A DNA stretch of 21,467 nt from a virus. The stretch lies in the IMG/VR virus record IMGVR_UViG_3300042549_000134, positions 1 to 21,467 of that record. One strand, written 5' to 3'. The position numbers were made by a program, and so were the translations under genes. Positions 970 to 14,562 of this stretch are shown one piece after another. Each line of letters starts with the position of its first letter. The stretch's first letter is position 1. The notes beneath the pieces are model-generated. The model was given only the letters and a program-made list of their open reading frames with translations. It was not told the DNA's origin and made no database searches.

Positions 970-1157
970 TGAAAACACTATTTGAGTTCTTTGTGGAAGA
1001 GTTCTCAGACATCCACTACTGCCCTTATTGCCTGGCAATCAAAGGGGATAAAATAGTTTGCTGCCAAGAAGCAGACTTTACTAAGTTCAAGGATTTATAT
1101 ATTGAACAACAAAAAGAAATAATCAATGCTGAATTAGATGAAAATCAAAGGAGTTAA
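969..1157 (+). CDS. Small Cys-rich protein, zinc-ribbon-like
   Basis: The protein has 62 residues from ATG 969, which overlaps the previous stop as TGATG; an upstream in-frame ATG at 939 would intrude 30 bases into the preceding gene and is less likely. Cysteines are arranged as HYCPYC followed about 11 residues later by IVCC, a possible metal-binding knuckle but with fewer spaced pairs than a classical zinc ribbon. The rest is acidic and helical (FKDLYIEQQKEIINAELDE). The 3' end contains AAAGGAG, the ribosome binding site of the next gene. The family is not recognised. Confidence 0.65.
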   Translation: MKTLFEFFVEEFSDIHYCPYCLAIKGDKIVCCQEADFTKFKDLYIEQQKEIINAELDENQRS

Positions 1158-1158
1158 T

Positions 1159-1776
1159 ATGTCAATAGAAATGCTACTTAAAAAGAACGTCAACGATCAC
1201 GTTGAGAAGAAGAATGGCCTATCCTACCTATCATGGGCATGGGCATGGGCAGAGGCTCTCAAAGCTGATGCAAAGGCTTCCTACAAGATAGAAATGTTTG
1301 GCGACAAGTGTTTCATGGATATCAATGGCACAGCAATGGTGTTCGTAACAGTTACCATGTTTGATAAGCCAATGACTTGCCAGCTTCCCGTGATGGACTA
1401 TCGAAACAAGGCCATCCTTAACCCTGATGCGTTTGCAGTAAACACGGCAATCATGCGCTGCATGACCAAAGCCCTGGCACTACATGGCCTCGGTCTATAT
1501 TTGTATAGCGGTGAAGACGTCCCCGAAGAGGGTGATAAGTTTGAGAAAATCATTATCAGCCCAACCCAAGGCGCACAAAATGACGTTCCAATTGAGGAAC
1601 TAAGGTATCTTGAAGAAGTGGCAATAGAATTGATTGCCATGTGTGAGCAAGGTGATCCAAGGGCAGCCTTGGTTAGGTTGGATGAAGAGAACCTAGATAA
1701 CGAGCAAAAGATCGCTCTATGGACTCTCATGCCTAGTAAAGTAAGAAATGCGTTAAAGAAAGCAAAGGAAATGTGA
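1159..1776 (+). CDS. DUF1071/Sak3-like single-strand annealing protein
   Basis: The protein has 205 residues; ATG 1159 is preceded by AAAGGAG at good spacing. The N-terminal region (about 18-125) shows the hallmarks I associate with DUF1071, a phage recombinase family often called Sak3-like and grouped with Rad52-type annealing proteins: [16 protein letters not shown] near the start, a beta-rich core ([29 protein letters not shown]), then [20 protein letters not shown] and a short acidic run (SGEDVPEE). The C-terminal 70 residues are helical and less conserved. Expected role: binding ssDNA and annealing strands during phage recombination and repair. The next gene encodes a small protein with an SSB-type tail, which fits a recombination pair. 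Family assignment is from memory of motifs. Confidence 0.75.
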
Positions 1777-4138: not shown

Positions 4139-4735
4139 TTAAGAAGCAAGCACAAGTAAGGCGTGATCTATGTGCTTTATGCGGTCTTCTAGCCCTATAA
4201 ACCCACCATTTATCTTCTTGGTTAAGGTTCTGTAATCCTTGTTATCAGCATATTGGTTCAGCTTTTGGACATCCCAAAACCACCCTGCGGTGAGTGCTGC
4301 ATACATGGGAGTAGCAACAAGTTCAGGTTGCATTACAAAATCCACCCCTAGAGCCTGACCTGCATGGAAATAGTTTGCATGGCCTGTCAATTGGATACAT
4401 CCTCGGCCTCGGAAACGATACCCATCCCCAGAAGCCTCATCCCTGTTTCCCATACGATTAGAGTAAACAGTATTGGCAATCAACTTAGGATTACGAGCGC
4501 AAGCCTGTGCCTTGGCAGCGTCAAACCTCTTAGGCCATAACTTCTGCAAAGCCTCTGCACGATAGTTTAAATTCTCTTCAAGTATTCTGAAGTTCCCACA
4601 TTCATGCCCACATTGACCAATGAAAGCCGCTTTTCTAAGTGGATTCATAATGTCAAAACGCTCAAAAGTGGCATTCAGGGCATCTACCCACTCTTCACCA
4701 ATATGAAGTTGTCGGAGTTGTTCTTTACTGACCAT
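4139..4735 (-). CDS. GH19-family endolysin (chitinase/lysozyme fold)
   Basis: The protein has 198 residues; AAGGAG stands upstream of ATG 4735. Motifs of glycoside hydrolase family 19 run in order: QCGHECGNF with the likely catalytic acid Glu45, EENLNYRAEAL, VYSNRMGNRDE, and GYRFRGRGCIQLTGHANYF (about 105-123). The C-terminal helical part ends EDRIKHIDHALLVLAS. Phage GH19 enzymes cleave the glycan strand of peptidoglycan. There is no signal peptide or signal-anchor segment, so export to the wall should depend on a holin; a holin-like gene and spanins lie directly upstream in the operon. The start overlaps the Rz gene by 11 bases. Confidence 0.92.
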   Translation of the reverse strand: MVSKEQLRQLHIGEEWVDALNATFERFDIMNPLRKAAFIGQCGHECGNFRILEENLNYRAEALQKLWPKRFDAAKAQACARNPKLIANTVYSNRMGNRDEASGDGYRFRGRGCIQLTGHANYFHAGQALGVDFVMQPELVATPMYAALTAGWFWDVQKLNQYADNKDYRTLTKKINGGFIGLEDRIKHIDHALLVLAS

Positions 4736-12527: not shown

Positions 12528-13322
12528 TTATTGTGGCTCAATGCCAAGTTCTTTGCGTATTTTTGTAGCTGAAATGGCATGAGTAGCCGCATCAAACGAC
12601 TCTTGCTCTATTTTATATCCAACATCCCTACCATAGGTGATATTAACAATATTTGGCACAAGTTGTATCTCATACTGACCTTGATACAAAGGGTCAAGAT
12701 CACGCTTAATAAAGTCTTTTACCTGATTAGCAGCAAATGGGTTAGAACCATTCCAACCCTGACAATCTCTAATCTGAATAACTACTTGACCAGTTTTAGC
12801 TAAGGCTCTCTCAAACAGCTTACGATGGCCTTCATGCCAAGGTTGCCATCTGCCAAGCATCTGTACAGTTTCTTTCTGCCAATCAAAGACAGGGCGTTGG
12901 CGGTTGTCCAAGATGTGTGCGGCAATAAACTCACCCCACTTTTCAGCCTTCTGCTCTGTGATCCTAAAGTCATACTGCTCTGGTGCAACAAACACCTTGT
13001 TTGTGTCCTCAAACCTACCCTTGTCAATGGTATCAACCCAGACAGTCCAATCTGCCTTGAAGTTGTTACGCATCTCAACTAGAGGGGCTACAAAGTCACA
13101 AATAACATAATCCACATCGTAACTATCGGCTAGGTCACGCATCCGCAAACTCTGACGAATGCGGCCTTCATGGGAAAAGTCCCAATCGTTGTATTTCTTA
13201 CGCACATCATCAGCGTTCAGCCACATAACTGTTTTATGGTTGTTTTGCAGATGCTCAAGAACGTGCTGTGCAAGGTAAGTTTTACCAGCACCAGGCAAGC
13301 CCATGATTAAGATTCTTTTCAT
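12528..13322 (-). CDS. APS-kinase-like / nucleotidylyltransferase fusion
   Basis: The protein has 264 residues in two domains. Residues 1-145 form a P-loop kinase: GLPGAGKT (8-15), NADDVRKKYNDWDFSHEGRI (36-55), resembling the APS kinase signature in which a D-x-D-N-V-R core precedes a F-S-x-x-x-R segment, VICDFVAPL (73-81) and VWVDT with a later APEQYDF. APS kinase phosphorylates adenylyl sulfate to PAPS. Residues 150-264 show an HxGH nucleotidylyltransferase: MLGRWQPWHEGHRKL (HEGH 163-166) and ISATKIRKEL (250-259). That motif style is closest to NMN- or glycerol-type adenylyl/cytidylyltransferases, though ATP sulfurylases also use HxGH. It is coupled by ATGA to the upstream sulfotransferase. 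The likely role is supplying activated sulfate; the nucleotide product of the second domain is uncertain. Confidence 0.8.
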   Translation of the reverse strand: MKRILIMGLPGAGKTYLAQHVLEHLQNNHKTVMWLNADDVRKKYNDWDFSHEGRIRQSLRMRDLADSYDVDYVICDFVAPLVEMRNNFKADWTVWVDTIDKGRFEDTNKVFVAPEQYDFRITEQKAEKWGEFIAAHILDNRQRPVFDWQKETVQMLGRWQPWHEGHRKLFERALAKTGQVVIQIRDCQGWNGSNPFAANQVKDFIKRDLDPLYQGQYEIQLVPNIVNITYGRDVGYKIEQESFDAATHAISATKIRKELGIEPQ

Positions 13323-14140
13323 CCCTTGACCTTGTAAAGTTGTTTGATTGCAAACTCTGGTGCGGGTGTGCGCCAGAATTCTTTACCCGAATACTTTTCC
13401 CAAACTGATTTGGGCAGAATAGATGGACGTTCTTGCCATGTCACTTCTTTGCGTACTGTATGAAGACTCTTCATGTTTAAGGCTTTGTCATAGACTTCGT
13501 TCTCATACTCAACATTCTTGAAGTCATGGTCAAAATAAGGCTTGCCAATAAACCCATAAATCTCACGCATCACGTTCTCAGGTTGTTTGCATAGAGATTC
13601 ATATTCCACCAACATAATCATGTCTGGGTTTAGCAGTAAACCTTCTTCTAAGAAGTAATAAGGCTTGACTACTTGGCCCTCCTTCTTCACATCCATTAGG
13701 GCATCGCACCTTGTGGTGACTGTTTGCCTAGCTTCATCGTCTGTTAGTGCCGCACCATACAAAGAGTTCTTGGCAGCAATACGCTCAAAGCTATCAAGTA
13801 TCCAAGGCAAATCACGCACACAGCAAATGATTTTGGTCTGTGGGTAAAGCTCTTTCAATAGAGATGTTTTAGAAGTCCAACGTCTGCTAGTGTCAAATAC
13901 TGTATTTGGCTTAACTTCTTTGTAGTAAGCATTAAATAAATCTTTAAGTATTTGCTTGCGTCTGTCTTCATCAATCAAATGGTTATTTTCGTTTTCTGTA
14001 ATCACATTGATGGTTGAGATCACCAAACTTTGCATGGGCGAAGATATATCCGCATGGAACTCAGGGTTCTGACGCAAGATGGCCGAGAGCAGGGTTGAAC
14101 CTGACCTTGGCAAACCTGAGATAAAGAAAAACTCTTTCAT
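13319..14140 (-). CDS. PAPS-dependent sulfotransferase
   Basis: The protein has 273 residues from ATG 14140, which overlaps the upstream TGA as ATGA; an in-frame ATG at 14155 would add five residues. Residues 8-16 are SGLPRSGST, the 5'-phosphosulfate-binding loop of sulfotransferases. CVRDLPWILDSFERI (about 107-121) carries the conserved Arg and Ser that bind the 3'-phosphate of PAPS. A third segment, VEYESLCKQPENVMREIYGF, matches the later helix of Sulfotransfer-type domains. There is no signal peptide, so it acts in the host cytoplasm. The acceptor is unknown: a virion protein side chain, glycan, lipid or small metabolite. It precedes the APS-kinase-like fusion and follows the fibre genes, pointing to virion or surface modification. 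Confidence 0.85.
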   Translation of the reverse strand: MKEFFFISGLPRSGSTLLSAILRQNPEFHADISSPMQSLVISTINVITENENNHLIDEDRRKQILKDLFNAYYKEVKPNTVFDTSRRWTSKTSLLKELYPQTKIICCVRDLPWILDSFERIAAKNSLYGAALTDDEARQTVTTRCDALMDVKKEGQVVKPYYFLEEGLLLNPDMIMLVEYESLCKQPENVMREIYGFIGKPYFDHDFKNVEYENEVYDKALNMKSLHTVRKEVTWQERPSILPKSVWEKYSGKEFWRTPAPEFAIKQLYKVKG

Positions 14141-14562
14141 TCTGCTGGAATCCAATTGACTGTAGCTTCATCCCATTGATAGCGCACATTGCCACCATTC
14201 ATAATCGCATCAGCAGGTCTTGGTACAGGTGCGGCCCATGTCATTGTGTCAGAGTAGCCAATCCAAGATGGATAAGGTTTACGGGCTTCATGTTCAGCAG
14301 CTCTCGCAGCGTTGTATTCTTCTTCAGTCAGAACTTGGAGAACACCCGCAATGCTTGTGTCGGCATCATCATCGCAAGTTCCATAGTATTTAGGCGCACT
14401 TAAATATGTTCCATTAGATGATGTTTGCACAGGCCATGCTGAACTGTCATGCCATAAATGAGTCCAACCCTTAACTGCTGGCATTGATGGGCCTGTGCGT
14501 TGTGGCTCAACTGTGCAAGGTATTTTTGTAACTGCATCTACTTCGGTAATACAAATGTACAT
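14137..14562 (-). CDS. Probable tail-fibre-associated protein
   Basis: The protein has 141 residues; AAAGGAA lies 8 bases ahead of ATG 14562. It begins MYICITEVDAVTKIPCTVEP, has a TGPSMPAVKGWTHLW strand region, an acidic YYGTCDDDADTSIAGVLQVL, a helix LTEEEYNAARAAEHEARKPY, and ends with PVPRPADAI ... RYQWDEATVNWIPAE. The ending, a Pro-rich turn then YxWDEATxNW, recurs in short phage proteins encoded after fibre genes, which may be fibre chaperones or tip proteins. I have no firm family. It sits between the adhesin and the sulfotransferase and is coupled to the latter by ATGA, so it could also be a sulfation substrate or partner. Confidence 0.55.
   Translation of the reverse strand: MYICITEVDAVTKIPCTVEPQRTGPSMPAVKGWTHLWHDSSAWPVQTSSNGTYLSAPKYYGTCDDDADTSIAGVLQVLTEEEYNAARAAEHEARKPYPSWIGYSDTMTWAAPVPRPADAIMNGGNVRYQWDEATVNWIPAE

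Follow-up and report, generated by a model that had tools for sequence, protein, structure and literature searches.

A candidate phage sulfation module in which a PAPS-type sulfotransferase is coupled to an APS-kinase-like/HxGH adenylyltransferase fusion

A 21,467-base viral record, analyzed over its whole length and referred to here as the window, encodes a predicted sulfotransferase followed by a small protein in which an APS-kinase-like domain is fused to an HxGH nucleotidylyltransferase-type domain. We read this pair, with a probability of roughly two in three, as a sulfation module in which a miniature, non-canonical PAPS synthase feeds a phage sulfotransferase. In such a module, the C-terminal HxGH domain would probably adenylylate sulfate (ATP + sulfate -> APS + PPi), and the N-terminal APS-kinase-like domain would phosphorylate the 3'-OH of APS to yield PAPS. 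Direct transfer of APS from one half to the other (channelling) would help to pull its unfavourable formation in the first step, and the translationally coupled sulfotransferase would use the PAPS to sulfate an acceptor. We infer that the fusion catalyzes both steps, with PAPS as the product. What is sulfated, and how the phage profits from it, are guesses; the likeliest acceptors are a host surface glycan or LPS or a phage tail adhesin, and a tail or virion acceptor in particular is speculation. The pair belongs to three chained genes on the minus strand (14562-14137, 14140-13319, and 13322-12528, encoding a 141-aa protein, the sulfotransferase, and the fusion), with the following features:

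14137..14562, minus strand: small protein of 141 aa (phrog_7759), directly upstream of the sulfotransferase
13319..14140, minus strand: predicted sulfotransferase of 273 aa (Sulfotransfer_3; PF13469, 2.6e-19; PF00685, 1.4e-12; phrog_27463, 1.3e-49)
14093..14119, minus strand: 5'-phosphosulfate loop SGLPRSGST, sulfotransferase aa 8-16 (alignment with divergent relatives)
13790..13816, minus strand: 3'-phosphate motif R109-x7-S117 (RDLPWILDS) of the sulfotransferase (alignment with divergent relatives)
12528..13322, minus strand: fusion of 264 aa, APS-kinase-like plus HxGH adenylyltransferase-type (PF01583, 2.4e-9; PF01467, 2.8e-4)
12885..13322, minus strand: APS-kinase-like domain, approximately aa 1-146 of the fusion (Foldseek; profile against PDB sequences)
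13278..13304, minus strand: P-loop MGLPGAGKT, fusion aa 7-15 (G8, G13, and K14 invariant in 70 sequences)
13137..13217, minus strand: APS-binding signature NADDVR...DFSHEGRIRQSLRMR, fusion aa 36-62 (alignment of 70 sequences)
12531..12881, minus strand: HxGH adenylyltransferase-type domain, fusion aa 148-264 (NadM-like sequence; PPAT/NMNAT-like fold)
12825..12854, minus strand: ATP-binding motif GRWQPWHEGH, fusion aa 157-166 (alignment of 70 sequences)
12615..12632, minus strand: family signature GRDVGY, fusion aa 231-236 (G231, R232, V234, and G235 invariant; Y236 in 69/70)
12555..12575, minus strand: ISATKIR, second ATP-site motif of NMNAT-type enzymes, fusion aa 250-256 (S251 in 69/70; R256 in 69/70)

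The original prediction had described a sulfotransferase with an SGLPRSGST loop, followed with an ATGA overlap by an APS-kinase-like and HxGH fusion, and the open reading frames, motifs, and overlap were found as described. The junction between the two genes reads ...AAGGGATGAAAAG... in the DNA, which is a real ATGA overlap, and the coordinates of the open reading frames place an ATGA overlap between the 14562-14137 gene and the sulfotransferase too. The sulfotransferase starts with the ATG at 14140, with a TTG at 14155 as a possible alternative, and its stop codon occupies 13319-13321. Its 141-aa partner is conserved in the window-type lineage and adjoins window-type sulfotransferases in most of the loci examined. 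The genes before this partner on the minus strand encode SU10-adaptor-like, tail, tail-fibre-type, and fn3/Lcl_C proteins (Pfam and PHROG), in line with the proposed setting of the pair among tail genes. This setting is not general: in two other phage loci (L085 and L086), the pair lies within a T4-like clamp-loader region, so that it evidently travels without a tie to fibre genes. Genes farther downstream of the fusion, earlier taken to encode ejection proteins, had no match in Pfam or PHROG.

A single tail gene linked the window to known phages, by weak tblastn matches to those of Pelagibacter, Roseobacter, Sinorhizobium, and Aeromonas; the 722-aa gene of the window had no tblastn match, and a tRNA search of the window returned none. 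Elsewhere, the window encodes a Sak-type single-strand annealing protein (1138-1776, plus strand; PF06378, 2.6e-40) and a GH19-type endolysin (4139-4735, minus strand; PF00182, 1.3e-10).

The sulfotransferase matched Sulfotransfer_3 with 70.8 bits (Pfam gathering cut-off, 27), and its closest solved structures were tyrosylprotein sulfotransferases (E value of about 1e-3). In an alignment with 17 divergent relatives, R12, S13, G14, S15, and T16 of the 5'-phosphosulfate loop were invariant, and the whole PRSGST stretch was invariant or nearly so. R109 and S117, at a spacing of 8, were likewise present in 17/17, so the PAPS-site residues on which the original prediction depended are kept across the relatives. 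Judged by these motifs, the protein is a predicted PAPS-type sulfotransferase. A point against the sulfation module is a DKSR motif, found in most relatives, whose lysine is replaced by T in the window's lineage (DTSR, within "FDTSRRW"); moreover, the 17-relative alignment held no conserved acidic candidate for the catalytic base. The sulfotransferases of cyanophages S-SRM01 and S-SKS1 are 28-31% identical to that of the window and have the same PAPS motifs. Both phages carry the sulfotransferase with no fusion gene detectable by tblastn, which counts in part against the expected co-occurrence of the two genes. A sulfotransferase of OM43 phages, 33.2% identical to the S-SRM01 protein, has also been reported, its function being called unclear by the authors (PMC10580990).

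The fusion is a member of phrog_10255 (2.4e-49 across its full length), a family that PHROG labels just "kinase," and its AF2 model had a pLDDT of 90.3 and a pTM of 0.75. The Pfam APS_kinase model matched aa 4-90 with 37.8 bits against a cut-off of 21.1. When the kinase half was compared with the PDB by Foldseek, the comparison that had been proposed as a check, ranks 1-44 were all APS kinases, some of them APS bound and PAPSS1 chains included; similarly, a profile built from 70 divergent members of the fusion family found an APS kinase, 2yvu, as its best match among PDB sequences (4.4e-14). The signature region aligned with APS kinases position by position and nearly without gaps, with Q57 in place of the N of fungal APS kinase. 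D38, R41, F49, and R60 were invariant and R54 was present in 69/70 sequences. Together with F77, P80, and R85, which were also invariant or nearly so, D38, R41, F49, and R54 make up a set that we take to correspond, for the most part, to positions lining the APS site in APS kinase structures. Because these motifs are invariant or nearly invariant in 70 divergent relatives, they are not due to chance. The APS-kinase-like character of this half, in fold and in its retained APS-site residues, is one reason for reading the fusion as a PAPS synthase.

Compared with CysC (PF01583/TIGR00455), the fusion has the same P-loop, DxxR, FSxExR, and FxxPxxxxR motifs and the same fold, but its kinase half is shortened after the VDT strand and obligately linked to the HxGH half. 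The APS_kinase match stops at model position 94 of 152, the lid region is not complete, and the score against TIGR00455, the APS kinase equivalog, was 27.5 bits, far under the cut-off of 138.7; for these reasons, we name this half APS-kinase-like and not CysC. The incomplete lid region counts against the PAPS-synthase reading.

The HxGH half was nearest by sequence to NadM-type NMN adenylyltransferases (1.8e-9), and by fold (Foldseek) it had a 75-80-residue core in common with PPAT and NMNAT at 2-3 A. It has the GRFQPFHxGH, NPF, and ISxTxIR motifs and the core fold of NadM/NatV and PPAT; within the first of these motifs, G157, R158, Q160, P161, H163, G165, and H166 were invariant in 70 sequences, and the NP is conserved too. 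In contrast to NadM, it has the GRDVGY signature, and residues 68-108 of the NadM chain (MJ0541) map to about 15 positions of the family profile, leaving about 25 residues unmatched in an alignment whose second part is weak. The 68-108 stretch presumably helps to hold NMN in NMNAT structures, and an enzyme that has lost such a segment for the acceptor nucleotide would be suited to a small substrate, e.g., sulfate. Against the NadM equivalog TIGR01527, the half scored 27.6 bits (cut-off, 181.2). A canonical ATP sulfurylase was ruled out for the C-terminal half by Pfam, NCBIfam, PDB-sequence, and fold searches: neither PF01747 nor CysD (TIGR02039) matched the fusion, and ATP sulfurylase was absent from the best 50 Foldseek matches. 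The likeness to NMNAT and PPAT is a point against the PAPS-synthase reading, and the HxGH half may represent a novel kind of sulfate adenylyltransferase or have another function. Of the sulfation pair as originally proposed, the coupling of a transferase that uses PAPS to an APS-kinase-derived enzyme is supported, on fold and linkage; the HxGH half did not prove ATP-sulfurylase-like.

The NMNAT-like C-terminal half also invites an explanation in which the protein is a NadR-like kinase and NMN adenylyltransferase with its domains reversed, serving the NAD supply of the phage or counter-defence. A NADAR gene (Pfam, 4e-26) adjoins the fusion relative in Casjensviridae, which would suit such a function and counts against the sulfation module. 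However, the kinase half is APS-kinase-like and not ribosylnicotinamide-kinase-like by both profile and fold, about 25 residues of the NadM segment described above are unmatched in the weak alignment, and the genes linked to the family are sulfotransferases or cysQ, with no NAD genes; we regard an NAD-related function as improbable.

In human PAPSS1/2 and in CysNC, as in the fusion, an APS-kinase-type domain and a nucleotidylyltransferase share one polypeptide, and the order of the fusion, kinase first and adenylyltransferase second, is to our understanding that of human PAPSS. This domain order argues for the PAPS-synthase reading. The fusion differs from PAPSS in its size (264 aa against approximately 620; the 1x6v chain has 630) and in its NMNAT/PPAT-like C-terminal half, which has no ATP sulfurylase family match. 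The architecture therefore fits a bifunctional PAPS synthase whose adenylyltransferase belongs to another family. The component families are known and the fusion is an unnamed group: no NCBIfam model names it, all scores being far under cut-off, and a search of the open-access literature, which turned up work on viral cysC and on viral sulfotransferases, gave no description of the fusion.

Linkage between the fusion and sulfotransferases was strict among the near relatives in IMG/VR. Of the 80 nearest fusion loci, 72 contained a sulfotransferase, and in the remaining 8 the sequence upstream was always shorter than 4.5 kb; every near relative with at least 4.5 kb there had a sulfotransferase close by. 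Starting from window-type sulfotransferases, the fusion adjoined 79 of 80, and the sequence of the lone exception ends 16 bases downstream. Fusions at 90-95% identity to that of the window were found paired with sulfotransferases at about 28%, as in L048 (fusion, 94%; sulfotransferase, 29%) and L077 (90% and 28%). Since nearly identical fusions are accompanied by non-orthologous sulfotransferases, the common link is probably the cofactor, and this strict and recurrent linkage supports the sulfation module. The claim that the two genes always occur together therefore holds in the window's lineage, with independent recurrence in phages and bacteria; distant phage fusions often stand without a sulfotransferase. 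Among 47 distant viral fusion records, most of which are fragments, 8 had a sulfotransferase match (6 over cut-off), and Sulfotransfer_3 was not found in three complete Casjensviridae or in DLP_6, all of which have a fusion relative. That distant viral members mostly lack a sulfotransferase weighs against the sulfation module; in these phages, host sulfotransferases could use the PAPS, or the members may have another role.

Viral cysC genes have been reported and interpreted as auxiliary genes that boost assimilatory sulfate reduction (PMC10914622, PMC9529941, PMC8190135). For the fusion family, this interpretation is not supported: PAPS reductase (PF01507) was encoded in 0 of 48 fusion-bearing phage records, and the canonical upstream genes are missing from the SAR11 and SAR86 relatives. 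We give an ordinary assimilatory cysC the least credence of the alternatives. Scarcely more probable is a pair whose product is not PAPS and is some different 3'-phosphonucleotide donor, with the sulfotransferase-fold enzyme transferring the corresponding group. Such a donor has a precedent in the phosphoramidate decoration of the Campylobacter capsule, in which CDP-phosphoramidate is the substrate of an APS-kinase-like enzyme. However, no glutamine-kinase or amidase partner was seen in the neighbourhoods read, sulfate requires no precursor pathway, and sulfotransferases are PAPS enzymes.

Outside phages, the family was present in SAR11, SAR86, SAR116, Rhizobiales, and others. The kinase and HxGH halves were always together, either fused or, for the most part in SAR11 and SAR86, as two adjacent genes. 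A sulfotransferase was directly adjacent in Bradyrhizobium (including TPR-sulfotransferase proteins), and in five SAR86-type loci it lay 18-32 bases upstream of the family genes. Overall, coordinates read by eye placed a sulfotransferase within 4 kb of the family gene in 11 of 48 genomes (locus L294 included), compared with about 0.4 expected by chance, the genomes being partly related and not all independent. On an 81-member tree, the label for a nearby sulfotransferase needed nine changes, at least five of them forced by well-supported branches. In 17 related alphaproteobacterial loci, cysQ was immediately upstream (TIGR01331, 288 bits; cut-off, 228.8). This adjacency also argues for the PAPS-synthase reading, and its confinement to one clade, which makes it one event, reduces its weight.

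The 48 family-bearing bacterial genomes were drafts of unestablished completeness. PF01747 occurred in 4 of them, CysD and full-length APS kinase exceeded their cut-offs in 5 and 6, respectively (CysD in 8 at an E value of <=0.001), and Sulfotransfer_3 was present in 38. All 11 SAR86 genomes among them encoded a sulfotransferase and none had PF01747, CysD, or full-length ApsK, the families to which these absences refer. SAR86 thus has sulfotransferases and, among the families tested, no known PAPS source, which again favours a PAPS synthase. Among 81 SAR86-family genomes sampled, 76 had the fusion family and 77 a sulfotransferase, and a phylogenetic profile is uninformative since both are nearly universal. 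SAR11 is reported to lack assimilatory sulfate reduction; it is listed with cysC and cysQ, no sat, no cysHIJ, and mostly no cysD or cysN (PMC5069961). This gene list fits the family, and the listed cysC is a candidate member.

SAR11 also encodes AprBA, a possible other source of APS (PMC5069961), and this bears against the PAPS-synthase reading. The kinase half could make PAPS while the HxGH half does something else, the APS coming from a host ATP sulfurylase or from AprBA (sulfite + AMP). The NMNAT/PPAT-like character of the HxGH half is consistent with this division, as are the few family-bearing genomes with CysD or ATP sulfurylase. It accounts poorly for two halves that are never apart, and for SAR86, where neither PF01747 nor CysD offers an APS source. 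We consider host-supplied APS unlikely, although it is the most credible of the alternatives to the PAPS-synthase reading.

A broader proposal is that the HxGH half is a new, NMNAT/PPAT-derived ATP sulfurylase with no relationship to Sat or CysDN, that the family supplies PAPS to the sulfotransferases of SAR86 and of many SAR11, and that phages have taken the fusion as a mobile cofactor gene pairing with any resident sulfotransferase. We hold this tentatively, at somewhat less than even odds. If true, an unexplained "cysC" would become a testable enzyme, and some viral "cysC" genes would serve sulfation and not sulfur assimilation. It would matter because the SAR86 genomes tested lack a known sulfate-activating enzyme, yet 77 of 81 encode PAPS-type sulfotransferases.

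Several phage loci differed in their gene content. Phage proteins of about 590 aa with an N-terminal sulfotransferase followed by a TPR-like stretch were found at L060 (919-2694), L077 (3846-5612), and L207 (3913-5610); by eye, their second half resembles GT9 heptosyltransferases, a lead for which the Pfam E value was just 0.11. Their loci (e.g., L060 and L077) have RCC1-like repeat proteins and sugar-nucleotide-type genes nearby. On the 3' side of the fusion in L060 (7006-9185), and also in L065, L077, and L083, genes for a cytidylyltransferase-like protein, a cupin, a PfkB kinase, and an NAD-dependent epimerase resemble an ADP-heptose-type sugar-nucleotide pathway (Pfam). Among L003-L005 and L007, the fusion relative comes after the NADAR gene in the Casjensviridae and is near DNA ligase and other metabolic genes in DLP_6 (L003). 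A defence-system reading was rejected, PADLOC having returned just weak P-loop-level matches. In L087 (2401-6406), a 20-kb contig with no sulfotransferase, the fusion lies by FolE-, QueD-, and QueE-like genes (by eye), suggesting a deazaguanine region. A kinase-only paralogue is immediately 5' of the fusion in L176 (5540-6001), and a kinase-like protein with a C-terminal P-loop region after another domain directly precedes it in L234 (5102-5992).

Among the bacterial loci, the order in L269-L287 (e.g., L272, 5198-6799), from an uncultured alphaproteobacterial clade, was cysQ (PAP phosphatase), kinase, and adenylyltransferase. In two SAR11 loci (L302 and L312), the two genes are found amid a Rieske-type oxygenase, methyltransferase or PhyH-like proteins, and a crotonase-like protein (by eye).
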